The translations under genes and the position numbers were made by a program. A DNA stretch of 64,000 nucleotides from Fibrobacter sp. (GTDB lineage Bacteria; Fibrobacterota; Fibrobacteria; Fibrobacterales; Fibrobacteraceae). Below the pieces are notes generated by a model. The model made no database searches, had not been told where the DNA came from, and was given only the letters and a program-made list of their open reading frames with translations. Below, piece by piece: positions 4,699 through 26,242 of this stretch. Position 1 is the stretch's first letter. Every line of letters begins with the position of its first letter. The stretch covers positions 1 through 64,000 of the forward strand of contig JAGCPF010000002.1 of the NCBI GenBank assembly GCA_017642335.1. Reading direction: 5' to 3'.

Positions 4699-4756
4699 AA
4701 AATTACCATTTTGCCGATAACAATGTGTATTGTTGAGATTTCGTCCATTTTCAACA

Positions 4757-4793: not shown

Positions 4794-4816
4794 TCATATT
4801 GAATATGAGGCCGACA

Positions 4817-5410: not shown

Positions 5411-5411
5411 A

Positions 5412-5591: not shown

Positions 5592-5696
5592 AGCCGTTCC
5601 CAAAGTCACAAAATCCGGCCCGTCGGACTCCTTGATGCTCCAGCCGCTATCGGCGCAGGATTTTTTATCAGTTATCGTTCAGTGAAAGTCATATTT

Positions 5697-5725
5697 TTGA
5701 CAAATCCTATAAAATATACTATATT
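5697..5725 (+). promoter_or_regulatory. Strong sigma70-type promoter
   Basis: Perfect -35 TTGACA (5697-5702), 17-base spacer, -10 TATATT (5720-5725). The -10 lies inside a perfect palindrome AAAATATA-C-TATATTTT (5711-5727). The predicted transcript starts near 5732 and has about 138 bases of leader before the 19-codon frame at 5870. Confidence 0.7.
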
Positions 5726-5869
5726 TTGAGTAAGTTTAATAAAAGTCTGGATCTTCCTGGAGAGCTAATAGCACCCGCTGCTGAGTTCATATTATTTCTT
5801 GTCGGTTCCACCTTCCAAAAAAACAAACATTTTGTCCAAAAAACAATTGTTAAAATAAAGGAGGTTCGT

Positions 5870-5929
5870 ATGGAAATATTTAAGTTCTTATTCATGATGT
5901 CTATTGGTGTTGTGGTCTACGTGGCGTAA
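5870..5929 (+). CDS. Tiny hydrophobic peptide (19 aa)
   Basis: The frame encodes MEIFKFLFMMSIGVVVYVA and is preceded by AAGGAGG five bases before the ATG, one of the strongest ribosome sites in the window. Together with the strong promoter about 145 bases upstream and a long leader, it resembles type I toxin genes, whose products are hydrophobic peptides of about 18-40 residues. No antisense RNA promoter could be identified with confidence. A leader peptide or a chance frame remain possible. It converges on the 600-aa gene. Confidence 0.4.
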   Translation: MEIFKFLFMMSIGVVVYVA

Positions 5930-6017
5930 ATGTGGGGGCAACACCTTGCCAACCAGGAGATTCTAAAAAGAACGCGCCATGGGATTTTTTCCCATCCCCA
6001 CTCATACGCCGCCAAGT

Positions 6018-7820: not shown

Positions 7821-7879
7821 ATGGTTCCTTTTTCAAAAATCGGAGACAATTTCTCGTTCAGTGAAGGTCATTAGTCGCC

Positions 7880-8710
7880 TTATAAGTTTGGTGAGGCTAA
7901 AGCAGCAGCAAGATTTAATCCTGTAGATTTTTTCCCAAGGCTAAACGGATAATCTGCCGTACATTTTTCATCCGTGTATGTACATTTAGGTTGTTGTTTT
8001 TTGAGATGATTCTGCCAAGATTTAACCTCCGCATATGTTTGATCGAAGGCATCCTCAAAAGCGTGCCCAACATCAAGCGATTCTTGCGCTTCAAAACCAT
8101 TGTTAGCCATATGATATGAAAAAACACTGACTTCACCGGATTGACGCATATAGGATTTTTCGTTTTTTTGACAGGATTGTATAATAACAAGTCCATTAGA
8201 CGAGCAGTGTTCAAATTGATTGTCCCAATCCTTCCGGGCAGTATCTACTAATTCATCAAAAAAATTTTCATTCAATGGTAACGACGGAGCAGGAATTGAA
8301 ACAAAGGATTCATTTAACGGGTTGTTGCGACATGAATCAAAGATCAATGTTCCTTTTATTTTGGAGTTAGCATCCTGTATAGCCTTTATAATGTCATTAA
8401 CTTTTATTGTTTTAGTTCCATTCTCCATAAAAATGAAGTCATCATATCCATCATTATAACCATGTCCAGAATAAGCAAAGAAAACATAGTCGGTTTCTTT
8501 CAAATGACTAATTTCGTTAAACAAGCCTTGGACAGTGTGTTTTGAAAGATCGTGAATTTCATTACGATTCCAACATCCACCAATCGGCCTTTGTAAGAAC
8601 GTGCTCCAGTTATCTATATCGTAGAAGGATCCTCGTAATTCTTTTAAGGATTTAACCTTATCAGTATTTGCTGTTGGAGATGCAATTAGAATAGCCATTC
8701 TTTTGGTCAT
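7880..8710 (-). CDS. Caspase-like cysteine protease (276 aa)
   Basis: A peptidase C14 (caspase/metacaspase) domain fills the protein. The core starts MAILIASPT, and the catalytic dyad is visible as H83 in AYSGHG and C127 in FDSCRN, each after a hydrophobic beta strand as expected. There is no signal peptide. Bacterial caspase-like proteins frequently serve in defence systems, where they are released to cut a partner protein. The ribosome site AAGGA precedes 8710. It is the first gene of a two-gene unit with the 600-aa protein. Confidence 0.85.
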   Translation of the reverse strand: MTKRMAILIASPTANTDKVKSLKELRGSFYDIDNWSTFLQRPIGGCWNRNEIHDLSKHTVQGLFNEISHLKETDYVFFAYSGHGYNDGYDDFIFMENGTKTIKVNDIIKAIQDANSKIKGTLIFDSCRNNPLNESFVSIPAPSLPLNENFFDELVDTARKDWDNQFEHCSSNGLVIIQSCQKNEKSYMRQSGEVSVFSYHMANNGFEAQESLDVGHAFEDAFDQTYAEVKSWQNHLKKQQPKCTYTDEKCTADYPFSLGKKSTGLNLAAALASPNL

Positions 8711-9138
8711 AACAACATTTCCTTATTCTAGTTTAGTAAGCAATATTCCAACCCCAAAAACATCCCGTAAAATACACCATTCTACAGTCGTTTTAGAATA
8801 TACCTTAAATTAATCCAAATAGTTTCGTTTGTTTGCAAAAAATTCAAAAAACTTTAAAAAAACGTCATCTTTTACAAAAAACGTATATTTTGAGGATTTA
8901 GAGGAATCATTTCAGTTCTTTTCATTTTAACCGATCTAAAAATTGAAAAAAAGCTTTTTCGCCTCGCGATACAACCCCCTACCATCTGATTTTGAAAGAT
9001 TGCCTTTGGCATTCCGCAGACTTTTTTCCGTGCTGGAGCACACCTCGCCACAACCAAATACGGCTAACCCTTTCTCGGCTTTATCGCTCTGCATAATAAC
9101 GGCTTTTAATTATAAGCTACATCCTAAGCAGAAAATTC
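8711..9138. other. AT-rich spacer between helicase and caspase genes
   Basis: A 428-base stretch without a supported gene. It separates the end of the nine-gene operon (9139) from the caspase start (8710). A minus-strand frame of 61 codons (8872-9057) has no ribosome site and no recognisable content. No strong promoter for the caspase gene could be fixed by eye, although one is expected here. Confidence 0.5.
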
Positions 9139-11883
9139 CTAAGATACAATATACGCTTGTAGTTTACCTGTCAGCTGTTCACGCTCGTTGCTTCCCTTGG
9201 TGGAGAATCTTATACAGTCAATGCCATATTGCTCCAATATATAATTTTTCATACGGTCTCGCTCCGCTTGAACAGATTCTTGTTTATGGAAGTTTGCGCC
9301 ATCGATTTCGATTGCCAAAACGGGCGTTTTCGTGATTCGATTCGTAATTAGGAAATCAATATGAGTTGAAGGATGCTTGGCATAATTAAGCAAAGCAGGA
9401 TTGTCTGAAATTTTGGAAAAATCTCGAATCAGATGGTTCATTGGATATTCAAAGAACACATCCAGGCTCGGGCAAGACTTCAACACCTCGCGAATCATCC
9501 TGTATGCAGCGTTCTCCGTGGGATATTTCGAAATATTCTCCTGTTCCCCAAGATTGTTACAACATTTTCGGTCAAACAAGAAATCAAAAATTGAGTAAAT
9601 CTTACTTTCTACAGACTCACCAGCATTATATTGAATGTAGCCAATCAGGTCATCAAGAAGACTTCCCTTTGGCTGTTCCTGTTTAGAAGCAACCAAGACA
9701 AACCTATTTTTCGCTCTTGAAACAGCCACATTAATTATTTGGGGATCACCAGAAAAATCGGTCAAAACATTGTCTACCGTCGAAAAAATTATCGTATCTT
9801 TTTCGCGACCCTGAAACTTATGGATTGTCGATATATCCGTGTTCGGGACGAGCTTTCTTAACTCATAACACTGGTGATTATAAGGAGAAATAATCCCAAT
9901 ATCCGTAGCCTTGAGAGTAGGCAAGATTTCTTGCGTAATCGCTTCAATCTGTTTTTGATTGACATTGTTCTCGCGACTAGCCGGAACCGTCCAATGAATC
10001 GCCAAGGGATTCTGTTCAGTATTTTTGGAAAGGACGATAAGCTGATTGTCATAGAACTTCTGATTACAGAATTCAATAATCTTCGGGTGGCACCGGTAAT
10101 GTTCTCGCAATAACGTTTTAGCCGCATCCGGAATAAAGCGGGCTATTGAATCCAAGAAACTCAAATCCGCACAATTGTACATTTGAGGGACCTTGTGCTT
10201 TTCAAAAATTTCCTGGTACTTCTCCTTTTCCTCTCTTGTGGTTACCTTTTCTAGTTGCTTGCTATCGCCAACTATTACAGCGTTCCTAGCGCATGAAAGC
10301 GCCAACGCACCAGTAGCAATGTCAACCTGCGAGGATTCATCCATAATGACATAGTCAAAAACTGCATTCGGATTTATTGCGCTCTTTGAGGCAAATGTAG
10401 TACTGAACACAATCGGATAATCATAAAGGAATAAACCATACTTGTAATACAGATCATCTTTTGTATAGAAGACCTGTTTTTTGCGCAAGTTGAACTTTCT
10501 AAAAACATTCTCATACAAAACAACTTTAGAGAAGTTCATCAAGTCGGAAGCTGCACTTTCATTCGCCTTCACGGAATTTTCTAGATTCCTAATTCGATTT
10601 TCATATTCCGTTAATCGAATTGCAAAGCAGAAGTTCTCAAGACTCGCTATAATAGCTGCAACATCGCCTTTAAGAAACTTCCAATTAAACAGCCCTTTGA
10701 CGAAACGTAACCAAAAACGGGTAAAAAAAGAAAGCCTATTTATTGACGGGTCTTTCTTGAATTTCTTTTCTACTTGGGTTCTAATGAACTCAACATCGAA
10801 CAGATTTAAACCATTCCGATTTTCTAGGGAGTAGCCCAGAACTCCAAGCTCATCAAGATATTCTTTGAAATGCTCATAGTTTACCTTTGCGTTTTCAAAC
10901 TCCGCATTCACACGAGCCAGATCATTCTGTTCATTGAAAAGTTTCTTTGCTGCGACAACTTTCTTCGATATGCTATCTTGCCAAAAGGAGAGACTCTGAT
11001 GATTTTTTTCTATGGAAAATTCCAATTTTCTAGGCTTTTGCGATTCAATAAAAGACGTTTTGTTTTCGTCCTTGCCAAGCATTGCCGAAAGAAAATCCAA
11101 TTTATACTGGGATAACTTTTCTTGAACATTCTTTATGGCACTATTATTGTTGGAAACGACCAATGCCGTTTTCCCCTGAATCAGCAAGTTTGCAAGAATA
11201 TTGAGTATCGTCTGGGTTTTTCCCGTTCCTGGAGGCCCCTGAATAAGGCTAATCGTATATTTGAAGGCGTTCTGAACCGCATTGATTTGACTGAGATTGC
11301 AACCAAACGGAAAGACTAGACTTGAAGACGGCTCTAGCTGAAGATCTTTTTGCGCTCCAGACTTCAAGTAGAGTGCTAAGGCGGTATCTTCATTCTCGTA
11401 AATTCCTTTTATTTTATCGTATTGCTTTTTTAGCAATGAAGCGTCTTCTTTCTTATTACTGTTTTCAAAAAAATCCTGAACCAGCAGAGGATTATTCGCT
11501 GCGACATCCTTCAAATAATTCAAAACAGCATTTTGGAAACAATCCCTCGATTCGTTCAAGACCTTCAATTCGCTGTACTTATAAGTCTTGGCCCTATCCT
11601 TGAAAATGACATGCCAATACTTCTCCTCTGTTTTAGGATCGGAGAACTCAAGAATGGATTCTATGTTATAGAGCTCAAGACCTTTCGCAGAAATCTTCTG
11701 ATTTTTGAACTCATGCTGGCAAGGATTATCTAAACAAACAACATTACCCGCACTATATTCATAGGAATTTCCATTACGGAAAACAACCTTACATTTCCGA
11801 CTAGCATTATCGAAGGAAAGAGATTCAACCTCTTCCGTCTTTATTTCACCCTTGATTAATATGAGAACTTCACGTGGGTTCAT
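9139..11883 (-). CDS. SF1 (Upf1-like) helicase with C-terminal nuclease-like domain (914 aa)
   Basis: A cytoplasmic DNA/RNA helicase of the AAA_11/AAA_12 type. Walker A is GPPGTGKT (residues 216-223). Motif II reads MDESSQ and is followed by VGDSKQLE; the second RecA lobe has STIHKFQGREKD and VAVSRAKNR. Residues about 790-914 form a DUF2726-like PD-(D/E)xK fold (HIDFLIT ... VLAIEIDG), with ExD in place of the usual ExK. An N-terminal region of about 200 residues is unassigned. Such helicase-nuclease fusions occur in phage-defence systems such as Mokosh, which has a PLD nuclease instead. It is the last gene of the nine-gene operon, 37 bases after the HEPN gene. Confidence 0.82.
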   Translation of the reverse strand: MNPREVLILIKGEIKTEEVESLSFDNASRKCKVVFRNGNSYEYSAGNVVCLDNPCQHEFKNQKISAKGLELYNIESILEFSDPKTEEKYWHVIFKDRAKTYKYSELKVLNESRDCFQNAVLNYLKDVAANNPLLVQDFFENSNKKEDASLLKKQYDKIKGIYENEDTALALYLKSGAQKDLQLEPSSSLVFPFGCNLSQINAVQNAFKYTISLIQGPPGTGKTQTILNILANLLIQGKTALVVSNNNSAIKNVQEKLSQYKLDFLSAMLGKDENKTSFIESQKPRKLEFSIEKNHQSLSFWQDSISKKVVAAKKLFNEQNDLARVNAEFENAKVNYEHFKEYLDELGVLGYSLENRNGLNLFDVEFIRTQVEKKFKKDPSINRLSFFTRFWLRFVKGLFNWKFLKGDVAAIIASLENFCFAIRLTEYENRIRNLENSVKANESAASDLMNFSKVVLYENVFRKFNLRKKQVFYTKDDLYYKYGLFLYDYPIVFSTTFASKSAINPNAVFDYVIMDESSQVDIATGALALSCARNAVIVGDSKQLEKVTTREEKEKYQEIFEKHKVPQMYNCADLSFLDSIARFIPDAAKTLLREHYRCHPKIIEFCNQKFYDNQLIVLSKNTEQNPLAIHWTVPASRENNVNQKQIEAITQEILPTLKATDIGIISPYNHQCYELRKLVPNTDISTIHKFQGREKDTIIFSTVDNVLTDFSGDPQIINVAVSRAKNRFVLVASKQEQPKGSLLDDLIGYIQYNAGESVESKIYSIFDFLFDRKCCNNLGEQENISKYPTENAAYRMIREVLKSCPSLDVFFEYPMNHLIRDFSKISDNPALLNYAKHPSTHIDFLITNRITKTPVLAIEIDGANFHKQESVQAERDRMKNYILEQYGIDCIRFSTKGSNEREQLTGKLQAYIVS

Positions 11884-11920
11884 AATGAAGTAAAATTTTA
11901 AGCTTCCCCGTAATTGTCAG

Positions 11921-12796
11921 CTACCCATTCTTCATTATCTGTGACAAAAAAGGGTCAATAAGGCAATTAATTTTTTTTACGAAAGACGAGATAACTTCTA
12001 TATCTTGTTCTACCATTGCAGTATCCAAAACAATTTCTTTACCATCCTTATTTTTCCCATTACGATGAACAATATCATGGCGACGTTGAACAATGGGTAT
12101 CAAGTTTTTTAATGAGTAATCTATTTTTATTCCAAACACTGCTTCATAAATACATTTTATCTTTGGCAAATTATGGTACATAAATTCGTATAATTTTTCA
12201 AAAATGCGTTTTTTTGCCTTATCTGGATTTTCAACAATCTCATATAAAGTCATCTTTTCGTTTTTTAAATCCTCAATATTTTTAGCAACGTTCAATAAAT
12301 AGGTATCATCTTCTTTCACTTTTTCTATCAAAGTCCCACTCAAATACGCTTCCATTGCTGTTACAGCAAAGGCATCCACCATTTTAAGAAACATATCGTT
12401 TGTTAAAATAAGATCAGATTCTAACATTCCTCGCAACTTTTGCATAGTTAGATTAAATTCGTCAAAAGTAGATGGTGCTAGATTTTCCCAATCTTTCCAA
12501 AAATCATCCCATTCATCATAGGTTTCTTGAGCAACATCCACATCATAATCTAGCTCAACACCTTTGTTTTTATGGTCTTCGTAATCTAAAAATCCTATCG
12601 GATATTCCCACGCATTTATTTCAAAACTATATGGCTCATGACAAAGAGGACATTCGTCTTCATGAGTCCATTTATAGCCGATTTGCATTCCCATACTCCG
12701 TTCTTCAGAATATGTCTCAGACTCTAAATCTGAAGAAGCATCAAACTCAGCACCGCATTTATCACATTTTAAATGACATTTTTTTAATTCTAGCAT
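11921..12796 (-). CDS. Zinc-ribbon HEPN domain protein (291 aa)
   Basis: The N-terminus has a zinc ribbon (C11/C14 and C49/C52). The C-terminal helical half contains RHDIVHRNG, with R239 and H244 matching the RxxxxH active-site signature of HEPN ribonucleases, with the nearby polar Asn often seen. HEPN proteins act as RNases or scaffold toxins in many defence and toxin systems. The segment K212-G222 (KIKCIYEAVFG) resembles residues 72-82 of the 179-aa protein two genes upstream. Probable role: RNA-cutting effector in the operon; inferred from motif. Confidence 0.68.
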   Translation of the reverse strand: MLELKKCHLKCDKCGAEFDASSDLESETYSEERSMGMQIGYKWTHEDECPLCHEPYSFEINAWEYPIGFLDYEDHKNKGVELDYDVDVAQETYDEWDDFWKDWENLAPSTFDEFNLTMQKLRGMLESDLILTNDMFLKMVDAFAVTAMEAYLSGTLIEKVKEDDTYLLNVAKNIEDLKNEKMTLYEIVENPDKAKKRIFEKLYEFMYHNLPKIKCIYEAVFGIKIDYSLKNLIPIVQRRHDIVHRNGKNKDGKEIVLDTAMVEQDIEVISSFVKKINCLIDPFLSQIMKNG

Positions 12797-12810
12797 AACA
12801 GAAAACCCTT

Positions 12811-13749
12811 CTATTCCTTTACTATTCGATACTCATCACAATATTTGCAAAATGCAAGCTTTTTTCTGGGCCATCCTGTTTCAAACAATTTTAAAGGTTT
12901 CTTGCATTTACTGCATTTAAACGAAAATGGTTTTACCAAGCCGCATGCTTTACATATAGCTTCCCACTTTTTCGTTTCCCTATTAAGCGCGAATGAAAGC
13001 AAGCCTCCACATTTACACTTTACAGATTCCAGTTCTATCTTTCTATAAAAAAATTGCGGACAATGAATTTCCTTCAGAAATGATACGGTCTTTTTAATAT
13101 CCTCTTCGGGCAAAATCCAAAGAGTATCATTTTTCAATAGAGCGTCTTTTACAAAGTTCTTCACAGTATCCGAATTCTTGTATTTTTCATAAATTTCAAG
13201 AATTTTATCAGGAATAACTTCTGCTTTAAGAACCATGCCGTCATATTTACATGATTTTTCCGGTTTTACAACATTTGATTCTCCATATAAAGCAACCAAA
13301 AAATGTACCGGATAGTTTTGAAAACCACCTTGAAGAAAAAGAAATTTCTTTCTAAGTATTTCTTTGTTGTTTTGTAAGACTCTTCTTAACGCCTCAGATT
13401 GTCGTTTCGCCTGAAAGATTGGACTTTCCTTACTTGTATGCCACTCGTCATCTTCTTTAGAAAGATACCAACAGTTTCCATCTTCATCATATTTCATGCC
13501 CCCAACCCAATTTTTCGTTTCTACAACAATAAAACAATAGGGCGTAATTATCAGATGGTCTATTTGAGCATAGTCACCATCGTCTGTCACACATTTAAAC
13601 CGAAGATTATTAAGAACATGAATCTCAGGATGATCAAAGAATTTACGCTTTAGATAATGAGCCATCTGATGTTCAGCACCATAGCCCCATAAATCATCTT
13701 TACTTATCAATTCTTTCGATGAAATTTCTTCAAGATCTTTGTCTATCAT
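12811..13749 (-). CDS. NERD nuclease-related protein with zinc ribbons (312 aa)
   Basis: Residues about 20-150 match the NERD domain, a PD-(D/E)xK relative: D64 in AQIDHLII and ExK (E77, K79) in FIVVETKN. Residues about 235-312 contain Cys pairs (CKCGG, CKAC, CSKC, CKYC) making two zinc ribbons that may bind nucleic acid. The ATG at 13749 has AAAGGA eight bases upstream; a TTG two codons earlier is less likely. It lies 60 bases below the 179-aa gene and 14 bases above the HEPN gene. Likely a DNA-cleaving component. Confidence 0.75.
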   Translation of the reverse strand: MIDKDLEEISSKELISKDDLWGYGAEHQMAHYLKRKFFDHPEIHVLNNLRFKCVTDDGDYAQIDHLIITPYCFIVVETKNWVGGMKYDEDGNCWYLSKEDDEWHTSKESPIFQAKRQSEALRRVLQNNKEILRKKFLFLQGGFQNYPVHFLVALYGESNVVKPEKSCKYDGMVLKAEVIPDKILEIYEKYKNSDTVKNFVKDALLKNDTLWILPEEDIKKTVSFLKEIHCPQFFYRKIELESVKCKCGGLLSFALNRETKKWEAICKACGLVKPFSFKCSKCKKPLKLFETGWPRKKLAFCKYCDEYRIVKE

Positions 13750-13809
13750 GAGCAAGTTCCTTTAATATCACCACATTCTTTGATACACCTCAATTCTAAT
13801 TTATCAAAA

Positions 13810-14349
13810 TCATCTTTTCTTATAATACAATTCCGTTAATGACAACACGAAGCCATTTCCGCATCCATCTATTCTCTTTTTTTCATATTTTTCAAAGTTA
13901 CCTACATGATTCGTAAAATTTGATACAAAACCAAAAGGTCCTTCAATCTTAAGCCATCCCAAATTCTCATATACTCTAAATTCCTCTCTTGAAAACGGAT
14001 TTAAAATATATGGGTATTTTTTATTTAAATCATAACAATCAGGAATGTCCTCATCTAAAATTTCATTAAATAAGTATTTTAATTTTTCTCTAGTCGGTTC
14101 GTTCCCAAAAACAGCATTCCAAATGCATTCTATCTTATCATCATGATCCTTCAGCAAAGAAAGAAGCTGTTTATCCGCCTCTTTCTTTTTTCCATCATCG
14201 TAAAGATTAGATATTGCTCCAATAATCCCGCCAAAGCCAGGAATTGAGCCACATGATGTTAAAACAAATCTCCTTATAGAAGGCACCACAGAATGATCAT
14301 CTTCTAACGAATCCATCAAATCATTTAATTTTCTTTCATTTTCCGTCAT
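13810..14349 (-). CDS. Unknown protein with Gly-rich hydrophobic segment (179 aa)
   Basis: Not recognised. Residues about 25-50 (RRFVLTSCGSIPGFGGIIGA) form a Gly-rich hydrophobic segment that could insert in a membrane or form a helical hairpin. The rest is polar. Residues 72-82 (KIECIWNAVFG) share eight of eleven positions with the HEPN protein encoded two genes downstream. It starts six bases after the membrane-protein gene, so translation is likely coupled. Confidence 0.55.
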   Translation of the reverse strand: MTENERKLNDLMDSLEDDHSVVPSIRRFVLTSCGSIPGFGGIIGAISNLYDDGKKKEADKQLLSLLKDHDDKIECIWNAVFGNEPTREKLKYLFNEILDEDIPDCYDLNKKYPYILNPFSREEFRVYENLGWLKIEGPFGFVSNFTNHVGNFEKYEKKRIDGCGNGFVLSLTELYYKKR

Positions 14350-14355
14350 TTTTTA

Positions 14356-15165
14356 TCATTCCTTTTCATTATCTTGCGTTGATGAAGCTATTGCACATGC
14401 AATTCTTGGAACCCATCTGGTTTCTACACCCGCAACAAAAGCGCACGCAAACTGAACAAAACAATTGTCTGCAAATTCTGATCGAATAATACCAGCTTTT
14501 AAGAAAATCAACATCATAAAACCGAAAATAGTTCCACATATCAATTTTGTACCAAAACGCCACGACAACTGATCTGCATTTTCGTAATCAACGACTTTTG
14601 TTTCCTTAAAATTAAAGCAAATCATCACAAAACTTCCCAACATTCCCAAAAAACTGCAAATAAAATATTCATTTTTGCCAGGAGCCAATTCTACAAGAAA
14701 TAGTGTTATAAGAAAAAATAACAATACAATCAAGCACAACTTTTTAAGCATTTCGATTACAACATTCACATTTAAGCTTTCTAAAAAGTTTCTAGATGGA
14801 CGAAAATATAATTTTAAGGGCGATTTATAACCATCAACATACGCAGTACAAAAATTTCTTAACGCAAGTGATTTTCCCTGATTCTTTCTCTTATCATTTG
14901 GGGCAGTTTTACTTTCTATCTCTGAAAGGATTCTTCTATATTCAGCAACAGCATTTGCATCTTGTTCAGGATAATCTTCATCCCAACGATCATAAACGAA
15001 TTCGTTAATTATTTCACCCTGTAGATTTTTCCGCTCCAGCATCAAACCAGCTATTTTTTCATGACTATACACAATCTGTTTAACAATAGTCCCCGTCTCA
15101 GTTCCAAATTGTGCGCCTGCATTATATTTTCTACTTTTATCTTCTTGTCTTAATGAGCCACCCAT
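14356..15165 (-). CDS. Four-helix membrane protein of the KAP operon (269 aa)
   Basis: About 130 polar residues are followed by four hydrophobic helices in the C-terminal half (around LCLIVLLFFLITLFLVEL, YFICSFLGMLGSFVMICF, LICGTIFGFMMLIFLKAG and a weaker FVQFACAFVAGV). No family was recognised. The start at 15165 was chosen because GGAGG sits eight bases upstream, inside the end of the KAP gene, and the ATG lies one base after its stop; an ATG at 15180 is the alternative. KAP NTPases are often membrane linked, so this could be the partner that anchors it or forms a pore. Confidence 0.65.
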   Translation of the reverse strand: MGGSLRQEDKSRKYNAGAQFGTETGTIVKQIVYSHEKIAGLMLERKNLQGEIINEFVYDRWDEDYPEQDANAVAEYRRILSEIESKTAPNDKRKNQGKSLALRNFCTAYVDGYKSPLKLYFRPSRNFLESLNVNVVIEMLKKLCLIVLLFFLITLFLVELAPGKNEYFICSFLGMLGSFVMICFNFKETKVVDYENADQLSWRFGTKLICGTIFGFMMLIFLKAGIIRSEFADNCFVQFACAFVAGVETRWVPRIACAIASSTQDNEKE

Positions 15166-15166
15166 A

Positions 15167-17008
15167 TTATCGTCCTCCATTACGACTTTGTTCTATATAG
15201 GAAATTATATTATCAAACCTTTTTGCAAAATTTTGGGCAAGGAAATTTTTAGGACTGTTCAATATATATGTTTTACCTTTCATATAGGTTGTTTTAATTT
15301 TTCTCAGATTTTTGACATCCTCTTTTGCAGATTCATCCGCCGGACTCCCATACCTTAACCCATATCGTTCTTCCAAAGATGTCAGAAAAAAATCCAATGA
15401 TTTTGAAGTCAATTTATTAAGTTTTTCACAAACTTCATCAACATTTACATATTTAAAATACGGAAATTTCCAATATTTATTAGAGCCATTACACATCCAC
15501 AAATCACAACAATATTCGTCAATCCTTTCATTTGTCAAATTATGCACGCTATTTAAAACATCTTCTTTTAAGTGTTCAGCCTTTAACTCATTATTTTTTT
15601 CCCGAACAAAAGCCTCAATTATATTAAATTTTGGAAAATCTGTAGAATACGACCATCCAGCAAATCCCATTCGTAAAACATCAAAATCGGGAATATACTT
15701 CACAGGTTTAGTTGCATATAGTTTTTTTACTTTTTTTTCTATTGATGAGTCCGATTCCGAACGAATTCCCCAATTTGAAAAAAGCAACATCCAGTTTGCA
15801 TAATGAAGAATTTCTCCAGGATGTAAGTACATTCCATTTTCAAATTCCACATTAACTTCCTCAACAGTCCGTTCAAAATCAGCACTATCCAAATCTCTCC
15901 AACACTGAATCAAACTAAACAGTTTTTTCTTTTTATTTTGATTTTTTATTTCCTCTTTTTCCAAATAGTAACAAGCGTGCAAATCATCCCTTGAGCATAA
16001 TCCATCAAATATAATTTCTTGCCATTTATTCACCAAAGGAATGTTGATATTTATAAAACCAAAATTCATTTGTTCCTTTTCATTCAATTCATATGCCTTT
16101 TTATATTTTTCATAAAATTTTAAAGCATCATAAACATTATCTCGTTCAATCAAATTTAAACTTTTTTGAATAGATAAAAGTAAATATGCAGAGATGAATT
16201 TTTCAGTATCACCATCTTCTAAATCTTTTGTTATAAAATCAGAATATTCATTTAAATTCCATATAGCAGATCTAACACACCTTAGATTTTCGCACTTGAG
16301 ATTTTCAACAATCTCAAGTGCTTTTCTTTTTACAATTTCATTTATAGGGTTCTTGAAATTCAATTCCTCAACAAAAAAGTCTACAGCGTCATTCACACAT
16401 GGTTTAATCAAAAACTCTTGGCCTATACTTTTTTCCTTTATTTTTTTATAAGAAAAATCAGAAATATCAAGAGCATTTTCAATTTTTCTTTCATTGCCCA
16501 CAAAAATCACTTTTGTATCAGACTCAGAAATTACATCTTGAAAAAATCCAAATACATCTTTTATTTCAAGACCATCCCCCAATCGTTCAATATCATCAAC
16601 CACAAGAAGATCTCTTTTGGCTCGAATTTTTTTTACATCCTTCAACGAGGGACATTTTACTCCTATATTAAACAATTTCTTTTGAGTTCCATTTTCAGAT
16701 AAATCTAATTTAAAATCAGCACCAAGTTTTAGAGCAGTTTTAACAAGAGAACCAGCTATTTTTACTCCAGGAGATGATAAAAGAGGATGCATAGCCTCAA
16801 ATATTTTCTCATCAATTTGATCTAAAGATTTAAGGCCAAATAAACTTATATACACATATTTTTCTTTATCGATTTTTAAACTATTAATTAGATTTTTGAT
16901 AAAAAAAGTTTTTCCACACCCCCAATCACCTTTTAGAAGAATCGCAAAATGCGGGCTATTCTTTGACTGTATAAATTTTTTACAATATTCTGAGACAAAT
17001 TCGTTCAT
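15167..17008 (-). CDS. KAP family P-loop NTPase (613 aa)
   Basis: Walker A is GDWGCGKT (residues 27-34), then Walker B LLVVDDIERLGD (D138, D139) and a sensor-like KVIFVGNERK, matching the KAP group of STAND-like NTPases. The C-terminal 400 residues are helical and unassigned. KAP NTPases occur in phage-exclusion and defence loci (for example around PifA-type systems). The ATG at 17008 overlaps the HNH stop as ATGA; a TTG at 17014 has better ribosome-site spacing (AGGAG, five bases) and may be used instead. Likely role: energy-dependent sensing or switching for the neighbouring effectors. Confidence 0.78.
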   Translation of the reverse strand: MNEFVSEYCKKFIQSKNSPHFAILLKGDWGCGKTFFIKNLINSLKIDKEKYVYISLFGLKSLDQIDEKIFEAMHPLLSSPGVKIAGSLVKTALKLGADFKLDLSENGTQKKLFNIGVKCPSLKDVKKIRAKRDLLVVDDIERLGDGLEIKDVFGFFQDVISESDTKVIFVGNERKIENALDISDFSYKKIKEKSIGQEFLIKPCVNDAVDFFVEELNFKNPINEIVKRKALEIVENLKCENLRCVRSAIWNLNEYSDFITKDLEDGDTEKFISAYLLLSIQKSLNLIERDNVYDALKFYEKYKKAYELNEKEQMNFGFININIPLVNKWQEIIFDGLCSRDDLHACYYLEKEEIKNQNKKKKLFSLIQCWRDLDSADFERTVEEVNVEFENGMYLHPGEILHYANWMLLFSNWGIRSESDSSIEKKVKKLYATKPVKYIPDFDVLRMGFAGWSYSTDFPKFNIIEAFVREKNNELKAEHLKEDVLNSVHNLTNERIDEYCCDLWMCNGSNKYWKFPYFKYVNVDEVCEKLNKLTSKSLDFFLTSLEERYGLRYGSPADESAKEDVKNLRKIKTTYMKGKTYILNSPKNFLAQNFAKRFDNIISYIEQSRNGGR

Positions 17009-17814
17009 AAACAAGAGTTCTCCTTTTTTTCACATTTTTCTAAATTTTCTCTGACTCTTTCTAAAACAGAATTATCAATTTTTACCCCATCATATTGCAT
17101 ATATTCTTGATAGTTTCCAACACGATTTTTATCAACATGAACATATCCGTCCGAGTCAATTTTGAGGATTTTAGCGTCACTATCAAACAAAAGATGTAAA
17201 TCAGATCTCAGCAAAATCCCATTGTTTACGGATTCAAATCCACCATCTTTTACAGCCACAATATGAGCAGCCTGAAGAACTTCGGGAATTGAAATCTTTG
17301 AAATAGCACATTTTCTATCTAAATCTAATAGATTCTTACGAAACGCAGATTGGTCTCGGATAACTTGTTCCGTAGTTCTTTTCTTTCTTTTTTGCTGAAA
17401 GCCTTCTCTGAACATAAGTTTTTTTGTATTCTTTTTTGAATCATAAGTAACATTTCCATTGTCGTCTTCAGCATACCATAAGATATGAGATATTCGATCA
17501 TTTTCTACGTAATACACCTCTTTTCCATATGAAATTCCTTCTGGGGCACTTTGTTTATGTGTTTCTATATACGCCTCGATTTTGTCGTTTAGATTTTTTT
17601 CATAAACGATTTCAATAAAATCTGCCTTACGTTCCCATTTTATATGATATGAAGGAACCTCTTCTACTTTACCCTTCACTTCCCAAAAAGTTTGAAAATC
17701 AGCTTCACCAGAATCGCCAACTTTTGATTGAGTAACCTTCAACGGTACTACAATTAATTCATCTGGGTTATACTTTACTTGTAACCCCTCATAATTTAAA
17801 AATTCAATAGACAT
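17005..17814 (-). CDS. HNH endonuclease (269 aa)
   Basis: The C-terminal part carries an HNH motif of the kind seen in restriction-associated nucleases: AAHIVAV (H184), NNGILLRSD (N198) and DLHLLFD (H207), preceded by a single CAIS. The N-terminal 150 residues are unassigned and could recognise modified or specific DNA. The start at 17814 has GGAG eight bases upstream; the open frame extends to 17856 but would overlap the preceding gene without a ribosome site. Position right after the restriction-modification gene suggests a nuclease role in the same system. Confidence 0.78.
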   Translation of the reverse strand: MSIEFLNYEGLQVKYNPDELIVVPLKVTQSKVGDSGEADFQTFWEVKGKVEEVPSYHIKWERKADFIEIVYEKNLNDKIEAYIETHKQSAPEGISYGKEVYYVENDRISHILWYAEDDNGNVTYDSKKNTKKLMFREGFQQKRKKRTTEQVIRDQSAFRKNLLDLDRKCAISKISIPEVLQAAHIVAVKDGGFESVNNGILLRSDLHLLFDSDAKILKIDSDGYVHVDKNRVGNYQEYMQYDGVKIDNSVLERVRENLEKCEKKENSCL

Positions 17815-17830
17815 TATATTTTCTCCATGC

Positions 17831-18265
17831 TTATTGATTACATTTTTGTGATTCATCAGTCATCAGTTTTTCATTAACTGTATCAACAAAATCATAAATC
17901 AGCCCTGATGAAATTATTTTATCCTTACCACTACTTTCTTTTTTCACAATGGTTTCTGCTACATTTCCGAAACCTATTGTCAGCCAATATTTTTCATCTC
18001 CGAAGATATATTCCCATGTTGAGTTCACAAATTTTCCTGTATCCACGCGAACTTCTCCTACAACCAGCCTCCATTCGCGAGCATCAAAATTTTGCATTTT
18101 CTGAATTATTTCAGATGGGAGAATTCGTCCGTTACATCGCTCTACAAAATGTTTTGCCGATAAATTTAAGGAATTAACCGAGTCCATTTTAAAATGAATT
18201 CGGTCAAATAGTGATTTTGGTCCACTATCGATGTGAAATCGAGCTTTTTGAAAACGAGTTGTCAT
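17831..18265 (-). CDS. Unknown protein between type IIG enzyme and HNH nuclease (144 aa)
   Basis: Not recognised. It is a soluble protein with no signal or membrane helix, containing a beta-rich middle (EWRLVVGEVRVDTGKFVN, then YWLTIGFGNVAETIV). Its ATG lies six bases after the stop of the restriction-modification gene with AAGGTG inside that gene's end, so the two are translated together. It may be an accessory or immunity factor; function unknown. Confidence 0.62.
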   Translation of the reverse strand: MTTRFQKARFHIDSGPKSLFDRIHFKMDSVNSLNLSAKHFVERCNGRILPSEIIQKMQNFDAREWRLVVGEVRVDTGKFVNSTWEYIFGDEKYWLTIGFGNVAETIVKKESSGKDKIISSGLIYDFVDTVNEKLMTDESQKCNQ

Positions 18266-18271
18266 GCAACT

Positions 18272-21200
18272 TCACCTTTTCTCTACGGCTTCGATTTCTT
18301 CAGCATCAGTAATGCCGTAGAGTTGATAGACGAGAGTGTTGACTTGTTTTTCTAAATCTGCGATATTTCTCTGGATTACTTCGCTGTTTTCTGCATTAGA
18401 TCCTTCGACTTCCCCTATCGCCTTCGGCTCCAGGGTCCGCTCAGGATGACTCGAGGCTTGCTTCTTTGCTTCAATGATTTCATCGGCCAAAGTGGCGAGT
18501 TGTTGCAGGAGTTCGGGGTTGTCGAGGGGGATGCGGAAGTTTTCGAAATAGACTTTGCGGATTTCGCGGGTGCCGCCCATGAGTTCGGGGCAGTTGTACC
18601 ATATCCAAAGTTTCGCGAGGTTTGAGTTGAATATGGCGAGGAGGGCTTTGAGGAGAGATCCTTCGGCTACGCTTGCGCTCCGCTCAGGATGACACTCTGC
18701 TTCGCTCGCAATGACGTTTTCCGTTCCCTTTGGCAAATTCTGGGTATTTTCCTTTTCAGTGATGATAAAAGCTTTGTTGTTACAATACATTCCTGAATCA
18801 TCATAGATGAACGGCTGAAACTTGGTGATTTCAGGATACATGATTTTGGGTTTATCAAAGTCTTTATAATATGCTATTGCATCTTGTGTTTCAAACCATT
18901 TATTATTGGTCTTTTTTCGTGATTTGATTTTTTCTCCATTAACAATATATTCTCTTCCAGTTTGTTCTAAACGTTCAATTCCAAAACTCAATAAATGTTT
19001 TTTAATTGCAGGATAATTTTCAATATCTATTTTCATTGCAGGAATAGTGGTAATCATGTATTGATTGTCATTACATGTAAACCATGGTTCCAAATCCTTT
19101 CCACGCAATAGCGGCTTGATGAGTTCCGCACTTTTCGGATCTTCGACAATAAGTTTTTCGCGGTTTTTTCCGTCAATAAAGAACGCATCATTGAATCCAG
19201 TCAATATGCCGCGATAAATGCTTATCGGCATTTCCTTGAGCGGGGTTCCGACCTGCATTTTCTGCAATACGGAATCGTGGAGTTTGTTGCGAATACTCCA
19301 TTCGCTTTCGCCGAAACTTTCCGCAGGGAATTCAAAGGTTGCGGCCTTGACTTCTTTTTCGAATTCTCCGCTGTAATTCTTACTGTTCAGCGAGCAAGCG
19401 AGTACCGGTGATTTTTCGCCAGACTTTTGAGCCACGAAAATGCACACGTAAATGGTCGCATCGTCAAAGAACTGAATGTCGCCAAAGTTGAGGATTTTCT
19501 TGAGCGACACGCTCCCCATAAAGCGGCGAAGTTCCTTGCCGTAATCCACGAGCATCCACTTGTTCGGCATGATGAACGAGAAGTGTCCATTCTTTTTGAG
19601 CAGGCTGTGCGCGCGTTCCACAAAAAGGCAATAAAGGTCTGCGGACTTGTTGTAGCAACTGTAATCCCGTTTGCTGTAAACGTCGCTCATCTCGCCCATG
19701 CTCTGGAGCTGCACATACGGCGGGTTTCCGATGATGGCGTCGAAGCCTGTAAAGCGGCCTTCGTCATCAAGGATTTCTGGGAATTCGAACATCCATTCAA
19801 GCGAGTTGGAAAAATCGATGTCGTTGTTCTTGACCACGTTTCCGAAGAGGTCGATGCTGGGCGGCTCCTTGAGTTGCGACTTGAGACCAGCAATGTTCAG
19901 GCGAAGTTGTTGCTTGTTGTAGCTCGTTCCGCCCGCCTTGTAATCCTGAACGTTTTTCCTGTATTCCTTGAGTTTCGCGGCGAGTCCGTTTTTCTTGTCG
20001 GCCTTGTCTTCTTTCTGCAAAAAGTCCAAAACGACGTGTCCATTCTGCACGGGGTATTTGCTCAACAGCGAATCACCGACTTTGATATTGATGTCGATAT
20101 TCGGGAGTGTCTGGAGTTGCTTGTAGCCACTTTCCTTAGTGTAGTAGGCGTTCTTCAGGAGTTCAATCCAAAGGCGTAAACGGCAGATGTTCACGCTGTT
20201 GGGGTTCAGGTCAACGCCGAAAAGGCAATTCTCGATAATGCGGCGTTTCTCGTTGAACAAGGCTTCTTGAATTCGTTGGAGAGTTTCATTACCGGGCTTA
20301 TACTCAAAAGGTTCGTTATCGTCATCAACAACTGAAAGTTCGTCGTTATCAACTTTCAACACCCATTTCTTTTTGTTGATACGGTTTCCTTCGGCATCGC
20401 AGAAAATATTCAATTCAGATTTTATGGCGAGCATGCGATTCAAGGCAGAGACCAGGAAATGCCCGGAACCTACAGCGACATCCGCAATACGGATTTCATC
20501 TACAATTTTATTTGCTTCCGGAACGTCATCTTTCTCAATGTTATCTTCAATTTCTCGCAGATTTTTGCAATCCCAACCCTTGACTTCGTTGAACTTCTGC
20601 ACAACTGTCCGTTCCAGCACATCGCGAGCCATGTAGTCGGTGATGAACCCAGGCGTAAAGAAACTGCCGTCTTTGTAGCCGTTGATTTTTTCGAAGATGA
20701 GTCCGAGAACCGACGCGTTGATGAGCGTCTTGCTCGTAGAGGTCACGCCGCCTTGGGCATCGCTTGCAAAGTTGTACGCATCGAGGAACTTGAAGATGTA
20801 ATCCAGATTCGGGAGCGTGCCTTTCGCGCGTTTGCCGCGTTCGTCCTTCAGAACGGTCTTGTTGAAAATTTCCATCTGGGCATCGGGAATGCCGCGGATT
20901 TTCAGGTGCTTTTCGTCTTCGGTCGGTTCGAACAGCGAACTGTTCAGGTAAGGGACATTCGGGTAACGTTTGAGTACGTCTTCGTCGCGGTCCTCGATTT
21001 TCTTGCCGAGCACCTTGAAAAAGAAAATGTTCAGTTCGTCGAAGTTCGCTATTTTGTCTGTACTCATGAAGCGGTACGATGCATCGCCCTTTTGATACAT
21101 GAGGATTTGCGATTCGACAAGTTTCAGGAACAGCAGGCGGTTCACCCACGTAATGCAGAGACGGAGTGCCATCGCCTCGCATTCTTCCTTGTTCGGGAAA

Positions 21201-22132
21201 TCGTCTTCGAGCTGGTAGATTGCACTTTCGAGGAGGCATGCCTTGTCGCGATTTGCGGGCTTCTTGCGTCGGATGAATTTCTTGTTGCCCTTGTCTTCTT
21301 TCACTTCTTCGAGGCCGATGATGTGCAAGAGTTCTGCGTAAAAGTTGCGGTCTAGGCTGTTGCTATCATTTGCAAAAGGCTTGGCGAGGAGGGTCTCCGG
21401 GGAGAGGAATTTGTAGAGAGGAAGAAGTTTTCTTTCATTGGCCGAAGAACTAGACGATCCGTTCCCTTCGGCAGGCTCAGGGAACTTTTCTGCATTCTTC
21501 ACAACATCCGCAAGATTGAAACGAACAACATTTATATCGCAGGTTTTCAGGAAGTCGTCAATGGCAGGTTTCGCAATGTCGTTATAAAAATCAGATGTCT
21601 TGTTGCCGCTCATCTGGTTCGCTTCGAACTTCTGGAACTGAACATACACAGGATACGCCTTCGACCCGAAGTAACGAACGAAATCCTTTACATCGAAGAA
21701 ATACCAATCGTCAAAATTCGTGATAGCCAAGTACCTAATTTCACGATTTTCAAAACGGATGTACTCCAGCATAAAGTAGTACACCAGTTCTTGCAAGGCC
21801 TTTGTATTCGGGCGGTCTCCCGAAAACATTTCTGCTATATTCGTCGGAGACTTCACCTCAATAATCACCGCTGGCTTCGCGTTCGTATCGTTCCCGTTAA
21901 AAATTGCAAGGTCTATCGGTCGCTTTACCTGCACCGAGTAATCGGGATTGAAGATTCCTTTGAGAAAGCCCCAAATCTCGCCCTTGTGATATTCCTCGTC
22001 ACGGGCAGCATCACGCTTTTTGTAGAGATTCGCAAGCGTCAACCGAAACCGCTCCATTTTTTCGACGGATACGGGAAGTTTCAAAAATGCTGAATTGACG
22101 GACTTTTTGGGCGAAATTAGACGAATTGACAT
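18272..22132 (-). CDS. Type IIG restriction-modification enzyme, Eco57I-like (1286 aa)
   Basis: A single-chain restriction enzyme and adenine methyltransferase. The N-terminus has a PD-(D/E)xK nuclease (D74 in PIDLAIF; E92 and K94 in IEVKSP). Motif I of the methylase is DVAVGSGHFL (residues about 549-560) and motif IV is IIGNPPYV (about 803). The C-terminal third is a TaqI/Eco57I-type target recognition region. Three interspersed repeats are read in frame (near residues 215-224, 1139-1159 and 1227-1245), and the reading frame survives all of them. The ATG has no ribosome site; an AT-rich -10 (TATATT, 22141-22146) lies just upstream, so the message may be leaderless. First gene of the nine-gene operon. 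Confidence 0.88.
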   Translation of the reverse strand: MSIRLISPKKSVNSAFLKLPVSVEKMERFRLTLANLYKKRDAARDEEYHKGEIWGFLKGIFNPDYSVQVKRPIDLAIFNGNDTNAKPAVIIEVKSPTNIAEMFSGDRPNTKALQELVYYFMLEYIRFENREIRYLAITNFDDWYFFDVKDFVRYFGSKAYPVYVQFQKFEANQMSGNKTSDFYNDIAKPAIDDFLKTCDINVVRFNLADVVKNAEKFPEPAEGNGSSSSSANERKLLPLYKFLSPETLLAKPFANDSNSLDRNFYAELLHIIGLEEVKEDKGNKKFIRRKKPANRDKACLLESAIYQLEDDFPNKEECEAMALRLCITWVNRLLFLKLVESQILMYQKGDASYRFMSTDKIANFDELNIFFFKVLGKKIEDRDEDVLKRYPNVPYLNSSLFEPTEDEKHLKIRGIPDAQMEIFNKTVLKDERGKRAKGTLPNLDYIFKFLDAYNFASDAQGGVTSTSKTLINASVLGLIFEKINGYKDGSFFTPGFITDYMARDVLERTVVQKFNEVKGWDCKNLREIEDNIEKDDVPEANKIVDEIRIADVAVGSGHFLVSALNRMLAIKSELNIFCDAEGNRINKKKWVLKVDNDELSVVDDDNEPFEYKPGNETLQRIQEALFNEKRRIIENCLFGVDLNPNSVNICRLRLWIELLKNAYYTKESGYKQLQTLPNIDINIKVGDSLLSKYPVQNGHVVLDFLQKEDKADKKNGLAAKLKEYRKNVQDYKAGGTSYNKQQLRLNIAGLKSQLKEPPSIDLFGNVVKNNDIDFSNSLEWMFEFPEILDDEGRFTGFDAIIGNPPYVQLQSMGEMSDVYSKRDYSCYNKSADLYCLFVERAHSLLKKNGHFSFIMPNKWMLVDYGKELRRFMGSVSLKKILNFGDIQFFDDATIYVCIFVAQKSGEKSPVLACSLNSKNYSGEFEKEVKAATFEFPAESFGESEWSIRNKLHDSVLQKMQVGTPLKEMPISIYRGILTGFNDAFFIDGKNREKLIVEDPKSAELIKPLLRGKDLEPWFTCNDNQYMITTIPAMKIDIENYPAIKKHLLSFGIERLEQTGREYIVNGEKIKSRKKTNNKWFETQDAIAYYKDFDKPKIMYPEITKFQPFIYDDSGMYCNNKAFIITEKENTQNLPKGTENVIASEAECHPERSASVAEGSLLKALLAIFNSNLAKLWIWYNCPELMGGTREIRKVYFENFRIPLDNPELLQQLATLADEIIEAKKQASSHPERTLEPKAIGEVEGSNAENSEVIQRNIADLEKQVNTLVYQLYGITDAEEIEAVEKR
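18399..18450 (-). repeat. Interspersed repeat read in frame in type IIG enzyme
   Basis: On the minus strand it runs from GTCATCCTGAGCGGACCCTG to GAAGGATC, encoding the SHPERT...EVEGS stretch near residues 1227-1245. It is a variant of the HPERS...VEG-type intergenic repeat. Confidence 0.65.
18657..18715 (-). repeat. Interspersed repeat read in frame in type IIG enzyme
   Basis: On the minus strand it starts GTCATTGCGAGCGAAGCAGA and ends GTAGCCGAAGGATC, encoding IASEAECHPERSASVAEGS. The beginning matches the start of the intergenic repeats at 28691 and 58126. Confidence 0.75.
21461..21485. repeat. Short palindromic repeat inside type IIG gene
   Basis: An inverted repeat GTTCCC...GGGAAC whose loop holds TTCGGCAGGCTCA. 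The same loop sequence, in the other orientation, appears twice in the ABC-class ATPase gene at 27256-27320. It encodes PEPAEG in the enzyme. Confidence 0.6.
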
Positions 22133-22483: not shown

Positions 22484-23318
22484 ATGAAGAAAAAGAATAC
22501 GATGCCGACAGCAACTGTCGCGCCGCAAAAAGATTTTTCCCTGATAGACGAGGCCCTGCTCAAGTCACGGATTTACATGATTCGCGGGGTCAAGGTGATG
22601 CTCGACGCCGACTTGGCCGAGATTTACGGGTATAGCACGAAAGTTTTCAACAGACAGGTCAAGAACAACCTTGATCGCTTTCCCGAAGAATTCCGATTTC
22701 AATTAAATACCGAAGAAATCAAAATTTTGCGGTGCAAATTTTGCACCGCAAATCTGAGTTCCATGAGTCGGTCAAACCCCTACGCCTTCACTGAGCAGGG
22801 TATTTATATGCTCATGACGGTGCTTAAAGGCGATTTGGCAGTTCGCCAGAGTATGGCGCTCATTCGCCTTTTTAAGCAGATGAAAGAGTATATCATCTCC
22901 GAAAATCGTAATATTCTAGGGTACGAAGGGATTGTTGAAATTGCCGTACAAACAGAACGAAACACCAAGGACATCGCTGTAATCCAATCTGACCTTCAGA
23001 AGGTCATGGAAAACTTCATCGACCCAACAACTTACAAGCATTTTTTGATTCTTGACGGTCAGAGGCTGGAAGCGGATGTGGCTTACATGAAGATTTACGA
23101 AATGGCGAAGAGATCCATCTTGATTATTGATAACTATGTGGGCATAACGCCTGCGATAAAGGCCGATTATGAAAAGGCGAGGCCCGATGTTTCTTTGCGG
23201 GGCATCGTCAAAAGACGGCGGCAACAAGATTACGACCATAATGCAAATTGAATGCCCGGAGATGTATCATCCCATTGTGGAAGAATTGAAGAAGGCGACT
23301 GCGGAGGCGAATTTTTAG
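22484..23318 (+). pseudogene. ORF6N domain protein, frameshifted and internally deleted
   Basis: The first 200 or so codons give an ORF6N domain protein (LKSRIYMIRGVKVMLDADLA, then SNPYAFTEQGIYML and the KHFLILDGQRLEADVAYMKI hinge), a family of phage-type DNA-binding proteins. After IIDNYVGI about 50 codons are missing. The end is out of frame: the third frame near 23190 reads LCGASSKDGGNKITTIM and continues to a stop at 23318, which is the expected family ending. In the main frame the protein stops at 23251 with a spurious basic tail. The start at 22484 has GAGGTG seven bases upstream. The truncated product may still be made. Confidence 0.75.
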
Positions 23319-24198: not shown

Positions 24199-24627
24199 GT
24201 GAAGCTATTCAAAATTGCCATATGCATCTTGCTTTCCCTGTCGATTGTCGGCTGCGCCGTAAGCAAAAATCCGAACCCCGCCATCCGATACGGGCTCAAT
24301 ACAGGTGCAACCATGGCAATCCCCGGCATGGCCGTAACAGTTATTGCTGGGAGCGTGATATCAGATGACGACAACAGTAGCTCTTCTGCAAAGGACCGTG
24401 AACAAGAAGACCAGCTTCTCCTTATCGCCTTGATGGGGCTGGGCGCGGCTGGGCTCGGTTTTGTGGCGGGTTTCGCGCTAGGCGGTACGGTCGGCTTTTT
24501 CAAGTGGATGTTCAACAGCTTTGAAAACGATGACATAACCAATACCGCCCCGAAGAATGTCAGGCCTCCTCTGGAACCGGAACGCGATACTACTGTCCAC
24601 AGACACTATATCGACATGGGCGGGTAA
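24199..24627 (+). CDS. Small lipoprotein with glycine-zipper helix (142 aa)
   Basis: Starts with a lipoprotein signal (MKLFKIAICILLSLSIVGC). A strongly hydrophobic Gly-rich segment near residues 72-102 (LLLIALMGLGAAGLGFVAGF) looks like a glycine-zipper membrane span; another lies near 35-52. The tail is polar. Start is GTG, because the overlapping ATG at 24197 stops at once. A TATATT box at 24187-24192 would put transcription at or next to the GTG, but no good -35 was found. Family not recognised. It ends two bases from the convergent hydrolase gene. Confidence 0.6.
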   Translation: MKLFKIAICILLSLSIVGCAVSKNPNPAIRYGLNTGATMAIPGMAVTVIAGSVISDDDNSSSSAKDREQEDQLLLIALMGLGAAGLGFVAGFALGGTVGFFKWMFNSFENDDITNTAPKNVRPPLEPERDTTVHRHYIDMGG

Positions 24628-24628
24628 T

Positions 24629-25540: not shown

Positions 25541-25552
25541 GGCTCTACAAAT

Positions 25553-26197: not shown

Positions 26198-26242
26198 AAT
26201 ATACTCCGTATCAGCTATGAGGTGTCAGGTATGAGCCTTGAG

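Follow-up and report, generated by a model that had tools for sequence, protein, structure and literature searches.

A Fibrobacter sp. contig (JAGCPF010000002.1, GenBank assembly GCA_017642335.1) carries nine closely spaced genes, the first of which encodes a type IIG restriction-modification (R-M) enzyme, and the question is whether these genes form one defence system or are separate modules gathered behind one gene. The window, i.e., the whole stretch of DNA that was analysed, comprises 64,000 nucleotides (positions 1 to 64,000 of the contig). An earlier note on this DNA had proposed a single system that joins the R-M enzyme to a KAP/HEPN/NERD/helicase module; this was not borne out, because the parts recur apart and with other partners. 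It appears fairly probable from sequence comparisons that the locus is an R-M-headed slot for exchangeable defence modules; the R-M promoter would drive their transcription, and homologous recombination with the R-M gene as one arm is the likely means of exchange.

The nine-gene run and its type IIG gene

The nine open reading frames (ORFs) run from 22132 down to 9139, with the products given in amino acids (aa) and comparison genomes designated by G numbers:

18272..22132, minus strand: type IIG R-M gene, 1286 aa, at the head of the proposed slot (DUF7149, DUF7814, Eco57I and TaqI_C domains; PADLOC match)
17831..18265, minus strand: u144, 144 aa, pairs with the HNH gene (HNH neighbour in G098, G130 and G138)
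17005..17856, minus strand: HNH nuclease (HNH_2), 283 aa (Pfam 4e-10)
15167..17014, minus strand: KAP P-loop NTPase of the PDC-S49 type, 615 aa (Pfam KAP 4e-14; PADLOC PDC-S49 6e-89)
14356..15180, minus strand: four-helix membrane protein (4TM), 274 aa, an orphan family without a family match
13810..14349, minus strand: u179, a small accessory protein, 179 aa (14 protein clusters, its own included)
12811..13755, minus strand: NERD-domain nuclease with a cysteine-rich tail, 314 aa (Pfam 1.5e-20)
11921..12796, minus strand: zinc-ribbon-like protein with a HEPN-like RHDIVH motif, 291 aa (PF18735 at 0.006, below the cut-off)
9139..11883, minus strand: superfamily 1 helicase with a C-terminal DUF2726, 914 aa (AAA_11/AAA_12 and DUF2726 in Pfam)

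The layout described in the earlier note, nine minus-strand genes with tight spacing, was confirmed by the ORF list, and the gaps (6, 16, an overlap, 1, 6, 60, 14, and 37 bases) agreed once internal starts were taken. The downstream genes were also richer in AT than the R-M gene, as had been claimed, with a G+C content of 0.342 for the eight trailing genes pooled (0.39 for the helicase gene) vs. 0.462 for the R-M gene; ORFs in the flanks of the relatives' loci averaged 0.494. A further suggestion of that note, that the AT-rich genes were acquired independently of the R-M gene, is probably correct.

The R-M protein matched DUF7149 (2e-66), DUF7814 (2e-74), Eco57I (4e-40), and TaqI_C (5e-7) in Pfam, as well as the PADLOC profile REase_MTase_IIG (PDLC03612) at 1e-225, and a nuclease, an N6-methyltransferase, and a specificity domain were found on one chain, the domain set of type IIG. 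The sequence contains NPPY and an IEVKSPT stretch, which we take to be type IIG R-M motifs; assignment of the nuclease part is based on motifs and the PADLOC match. Each part was searched in 167 Fibrobacterota genomes, the genome of the window included, and the counts cover relatives that reach the threshold given with each result. R-M matches were identified in 25 of the 167 genomes at 1e-80, and the contigs of G091 and G087 stop within the gene. The conserved core of the protein reached a mean identity of 98% in places, and the specificity region was among its most variable stretches (0.40–0.65).

Variable cargo behind the R-M gene

Together with the window, 14 further R-M genes gave 15 loci, which were read over stretches of 20 kb (12 kb in G077 and 19 kb in G131). 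Same-strand cargo was located directly behind the R-M gene in all 15 loci. The gap between the R-M gene and the first cargo gene was 0–88 bp in 14 loci and 204 bp in G098, and the first cargo gene had a G+C content of at most 0.36 in 14 loci and of 0.364 in G077, so that both properties were combined in 13 of the 15. Among the genes in the flanks of these same loci, a control that consists of flank genes and not of other defence genes, 7 of 249 had a same-strand follower within 100 bp at a G+C content of at most 0.36. The first gene belonged to 12 kinds (clusters) in the 15 loci, and 77 clusters were found overall, a number that overstates the pure cargo since the walk included GC-richer genes beyond the AT-rich part. 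The R-M gene was the sole cluster common to all 15 loci. In 13 of the 14 other loci, DNA similarity to the window ended no more than 13 bp from the stop codon of the R-M gene, and the similarity in the helicase and NERD genes spanned these genes almost exactly from end to end. A conserved R-M gene with varying, unrelated defence genes, the pattern of an R-M-associated variable defence locus, was found in 15 of 15 loci. In a sixteenth locus (G096, 8 kb), a broken R-M gene was followed at 33 bp by genes that resemble SIR2 and HerA by eye. The surroundings of the other loci, read up to 20 kb into the flanks, differed, which indicates that more than one chromosomal site is used.

The profile libraries were queried with selected cargo representatives, several of which had no match. 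Defence families were recognized by profile in 14 of the 15 loci, whereas the cargo of G118 was assigned solely via clusters common to G144 and G097, which contained three ThsB-type genes with PDC-M50A and ThsA, respectively. Both G151 and G067 carried Septu-like PDC-M62A/B, together with TIR and NYN domains in the former and a SIR2/Dsr2-like gene in the latter. The cargo of G070 included Shedu SduA, a DUF262-type gene (PDC-M55C, then HEC-05), and a DdmD-like gene; a gene that is DdmD-like by cluster was found in G102 with NACHT and RelA/SpoT. G101 harbored Mrr, NERD, and a weakly JetC-like gene (2e-11, first 59 residues), the neighbours of which had no Pfam match. The remaining loci carried AbiH, GmrSD, and HNH (G113), LmuB and an ABC-3C domain (G126), a UvrD-type helicase (RTasHel 3e-43, GajB 6e-42) and HD-CE (G098), an AbiTi-like end domain (G088), a phospholipase D (PLD) nuclease (G077), and PDC-S06 (G131). 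Judged by these matches, the cargo behind the R-M gene is largely defence, with families that include Thoeris, Shedu, Septu-like, Lamassu, DdmD-like, SIR2, AbiH, GmrSD, and weakly Wadjet-like genes. The earlier assignment of the window's genes to defence held as well, given the PDC-S49 match of KAP (6e-89) and the matches of same-position genes in relatives to known systems. Several modules recurred in varied combinations, namely u144-HNH, NERD, the helicase, the Septu-like pair, the TIR set, and the Wadjet-like set.

A GC-richer gene of cluster C6 recurred past the AT-rich cargo (L061, L067, L068, the end of L058, and L170 at 9652–10929) and is a possible 3' border; some of these loci had helicase, C13, C2, C12, or C29 genes nearby. 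As a universal 3' border, the C6-type gene was rejected, for it was clear in 5 of the 15 loci (G070, G077, G097, G151, and G067, where the gene is cut short).

These observations yield a usable rule for Fibrobacter, in which the genes behind this R-M gene are candidates for defence. In the 15 loci, the rule flags known families beside matchless proteins such as the orphan membrane protein and u179. The loci also offer a testable case of a defence repertoire that would change by exchange of cargo behind a fixed first gene. In the proposed mechanism, the R-M promoter is predicted to drive the whole run, and the R-M enzyme would act as the first line, with self DNA methylated and foreign DNA cut. 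The genes behind it would provide second lines of defence, and the cargo would be swapped via homologous recombination with the R-M gene as one arm. The KAP NTPase may use ATP to switch on the membrane protein during infection, which could lead to envelope damage and abortive infection. The HEPN-like protein (acting on RNA) and the HNH, NERD, and helicase-nuclease proteins (acting on DNA) would be independent second-line effectors.

Different cargo at one site and competing explanations

Different cargo occupies one chromosomal site in two pairs of loci, window/G118 and G101/G126. The features of the first pair and of the genes around the run are as follows:

149..5584, no strand: flank common to the window and G118 (91–96% identical; 5013–5329 unaligned)
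5585..18273, no strand: segment in which the same-site loci of the window and G118 differ (blastn 1e-15)
6018..7820, minus strand: 600-aa protein within the exchanged segment (no significant family match)
7880..8710, minus strand: caspase-like (C14) gene within the exchanged segment (Pfam 3e-13)
22484..23251, plus strand: gene with an ORF6N domain, transcribed divergently from R-M (Pfam match of the longer ORF, 22412–23251, at 6e-33)
24626..39560, no strand: other flank common to the window and G118 (86–93% identical, five blocks)

In blastn comparison, the similarity between the window and G118 broke off at 5584 and returned at the R-M stop codon (18274). The segment between these points had no counterpart in G118, which carries a TIR set there, and it exceeds the nine-gene run in that it includes the caspase-like and 600-aa genes. 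These two genes, about 60 bp apart, come after the helicase gene and may represent a further module. RhuM-type genes were observed on both sides of the locus (2983–3993; 22412–24040), one of them short (112 aa), and the ORF6N gene on one side. In G101/G126, the left flank and the opening 600 bases of the R-M gene were 94–99% identical and the right side was 75–95% identical in blocks, and the cargo between differed.

The R-M gene itself was mosaic at third codon positions. The agreement of third codon positions between the window and G118 was 0.48 for residues 1–200 vs. 0.87 for residues 241–520 (chi-square approximately 4e-20, with 200 and 280 codons assumed). In G101/G126, the order was reversed (0.94 vs. 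0.86) and the specificity region was lowest (0.57). Constraint on the core alone fails to explain the mosaic because of this reversal, and the third-position pattern points to recombination within the R-M gene. It is a tentative possibility that the R-M gene acts as a docking gene, in which the conserved core would serve as the homology arm and the specificity domain and the downstream defence operon would be replaced together. The methylation mark and the second-line weapons would then change in one recombination step.

Several observations weigh against an R-M-headed slot with swapped cargo. No pair of breakpoints was mapped at base level, and the scan of 5900–22500 for promoters and terminators was not above chance (37 sites vs. 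47.1 in shuffled sequences, and 10 vs. 11.4), so that it neither splits nor proves an operon. The linker (201–240) and tail (1201–1280) of the R-M protein were as variable as its specificity region. The R-M gene was broken in G067 and G151 (2 of the 15 loci) and also in G096 with the cargo still present, which indicates that the cargo does not necessarily require R-M; the R-M gene of G139 was disrupted beside a transposase-like gene, and its 5.5-kb contig contained no cargo. Seven distant R-M relatives could be read downstream, of which L118, L119, L130, and L135 showed at most small or opposite-strand genes; relatives of approximately 39–58% identity in Treponema and two other Fibrobacterota groups had only small or opposite-strand neighbours. 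A Bacteroidia relative (L133) had a SIR2-type gene downstream, and L122 and L123 (31–34% identity, methylase part) were followed by same-strand genes without family assignment. In the window/G118 pair, the R-M genes were 79% alike vs. 86–96% for the flanks, and 22154–24625, the ORF6N stretch, was unaligned, which suggests that the R-M gene may have changed along with the cargo in this pair. Furthermore, Fibrobacter has among the highest numbers of defence systems reported in the rumen, 9.8 per genome according to excerpts of PMC11834463, which raises the background for defence neighbours.

The window/G118 observations would also be expected if the R-M gene and its cargo travelled as one unit, e.g., with ORF6N or RhuM genes, instead of a resident R-M gene receiving new cargo. 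The flanks, within the length read, differ for most loci, ORF6N relatives or remnants adjoin 11 of the 15 R-M genes, that of the window among them, and a 123-residue R-M fragment adjoins an integrase-like gene, recognized by eye, in Fibrobacter intestinalis ATCC 43854 (L137, 9959–11529). However, the left flank and the 5' end of the R-M gene are 94–99% alike in G101/G126 where the cargo differs, and no integrase was recognized among the window genes searched against Pfam. Travel as one unit is considered rather unlikely.

An ordinary defence island, in which R-M is simply a common neighbour and the packing reflects selection for compact operons, is unlikely. Defence genes cluster in islands generally (PMC12255303, in excerpt), the high average of Fibrobacter noted above favours chance neighbours, broken R-M genes persist alongside cargo, and genes such as the helicase and clusters C6, C13, C2, and C12 recur on the 3' side too. 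On the other hand, the frequency of close AT-rich same-strand followers (13 of 15 R-M genes vs. 7 of 249 flank genes, other defence genes not being part of that control) and the loss of similarity at the stop codon of the R-M gene, found in 13 of 14 loci, argue for a particular role of this gene.

One integrated system of nine genes, or of the six from KAP to the helicase, is highly improbable. The single strand, the tight spacing, and the defence-type domains of most parts speak for it. However, none of the 166 other Fibrobacterota genomes had any two of KAP, 4TM, u179, NERD, HEPN, and the helicase on one contig at the thresholds used, and two of the six were found in three other genomes (G077, G070, and G136), always on separate contigs. 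Co-conservation in three or more genomes, which the earlier note had named as its test, was consequently absent among the 167 genomes at these thresholds. Most parts recur elsewhere alone or with other partners, and gene order largely refutes a joined system. Least probable of all, and rejected, is a split Mokosh-like unit of NERD, HEPN, and the helicase: NERD and the helicase match opposite ends of MkoA, but the nine proteins contain no kinase or phospholipase D domain in Pfam and the two genes share no contig in any other genome searched.

Cargo proteins of the window and known systems

The HNH protein had matches in 5 of the 167 genomes at 1e-20 and u144 in 6 at 1e-3. The two are adjacent in G098, G130, and G138, although the loci of G098 and G130 look like copies of one, and a relic of u144 (3' end) lies beside HNH in G067. 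u144 and HNH are therefore a real pair. The relic (L071, 11113–11245), placed between a Septu-like HNH gene and an HNH gene, is likely a scar of module exchange.

KAP residues 3–609 matched positions 5–618 of the 624 of PDC-S49, nearly the full length. KAP matches were found in 12 of the 167 genomes at 1e-10, most of them over the NTPase half only (26–37% identity), and a near-full-length match outside the window's own genome was present only in G073 (38%). In 7 of the 12 genomes, the KAP gene accompanies R-M genes: in G073, G070, G124, G077, G072, and G129 (L078, L079, L080, L082, L086, and L087), it is found within a group of type I R-M genes, and in the window it stands downstream of the type IIG gene. 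HsdM, HsdS, and HsdR were tested by profile in G124 and G073 and assigned via shared clusters in the others. G073 has two KAP genes in tandem, and in G098 an HsdS gene lies about 4.7 kb away from the KAP match. A sequence search of the PDB returned no KAP relative at 0.01. Distant relatives occurred in 144 plasmid and 2 phage records, and the two places covering more than 80% were 22–25% identical. In five of the 144 plasmid settings, no annotated product indicated a 4TM or u179 neighbour, several neighbours being hypothetical proteins. Neither KAP nor 4TM had a relative in the viral contigs scanned.

4TM had no match in Pfam, PADLOC, NCBIfam, or PHROG, and 4 clusters, one of them 99% identical, were found among 5.8 billion proteins. 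It matched 2 of the 167 genomes at 1e-3, its own and G136, where KAP is absent and the gene adjoins HsdM-like and HsdS-like genes (35% and 28%, respectively, in blastp). A scan of genome contigs with the 4TM alignment found none, although the whole-genome search detected the G136 copy. In the structure model, four long C-terminal helices coincided by eye with hydrophobic stretches. The models of u179 and 4TM had mean pLDDT values of 67 and 70, respectively (moderate confidence), and a Foldseek search of both against the PDB gave nothing at E ≤ 0.001, which left the fold without assignment. u179 was found in 3 of the 167 genomes at 1e-3, each time in a different defence setting; in G077, it belongs to R-M cargo between a 275-aa gene without assignment and the PLD-nuclease gene, and in G060 (L089, 9799–10341), it comes immediately after the BrxL and PglZ genes of a BREX set.

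NERD matched 8 of the 167 genomes at 1e-30. Its company consisted of weakly Wadjet-like genes in G101 and G113 and of genes similar to the Septu-like pair in G096 and G128, and it had no recognized defence neighbours in G136, G135, and G078. The RHDIVH of the HEPN-like protein fits the RX4H motif of HEPN, and several relatives carry PF18735. The family comprised 49 clusters; among the 167 genomes, it was full length in its own genome only, and the second of the 2 genomes matched at 1e-5 was G070, with a short zinc-ribbon match. A sequence search of the PDB gave five matches at 0.38–0.85. Relatives of u179 and HEPN (P0009 and P0027) seemingly belong to one metagenome-assembled genome labelled Saccharibacteria, with tags far apart (IKQ19_04630 and IKQ19_14935); the label may be a binning error because a close u179 relative is named Fibrobacteraceae. 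The helicase matched 9 of the 167 genomes at 1e-60, seven of them (its own included) at ≥80% identity. It is located behind the same R-M gene in three of the six others at this identity, which gives four R-M-headed loci with the window; it trails unrelated cargo in G067, G102, and G151 and stands without an R-M gene in G108 and G127.

Among known systems, the PADLOC candidate PDC-S49, in which the S presumably denotes a single-gene candidate, is matched by the window's KAP over nearly its full length, but the 4TM and u179 neighbours are additional in the window and were not found with KAP elsewhere. Mokosh combines a helicase that has a kinase with a PLD nuclease, which is separate in type I and fused in type II. 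The NERD and helicase proteins matched residues 35–130 and 1294–1591, respectively, of the 1607 of MkoA (PDLC03921); in the window, they are separate proteins, with neither kinase nor PLD nuclease.

Type I R-M operons in which unrelated defence genes are embedded have been described, as far as excerpts of the sources go, for TgvAB in Vibrio VPI-2 (PMC11411939) and for DarTG2 with RptR in enteropathogenic E. coli (PMC12255303). The Fibrobacter loci likewise host unrelated defence genes in a predicted R-M operon. However, type I guests sit between the subunits of a multi-gene system, whereas in Fibrobacter the run starts with a type IIG enzyme encoded by one gene, and the cargo, including multi-gene sets, trails the stop codon of that gene. 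Hma clusters (Payne et al., known here from citing papers) are also a defence frame with guests, including GmrSD-like and Septu genes, but their frame is a helicase-methylase-ATPase set instead of a type IIG R-M gene. Exchangeable defence cargo is likewise reported, in the excerpts, for hotspots of P2/P4-like elements (PMC9122126) and E. coli defence islands (PMC10121019); those sites lie in phages, satellites, and islands, whereas in Fibrobacter the cargo directly adjoins the stop codon of its fixed neighbour, which is itself a defence gene. Among the open PMC papers listed in the literature searches, titles and abstract openings pointed neither to a type IIG gene that heads variable cargo nor to a KAP-4TM-u179 set, and the excerpts of PMC11834463 and PMC13356809 lacked the terms "type IIG," "KAP," and "operon." R-M operons that host other defences are thus already known in the type I and Hma forms, and the form headed by a type IIG gene is new.

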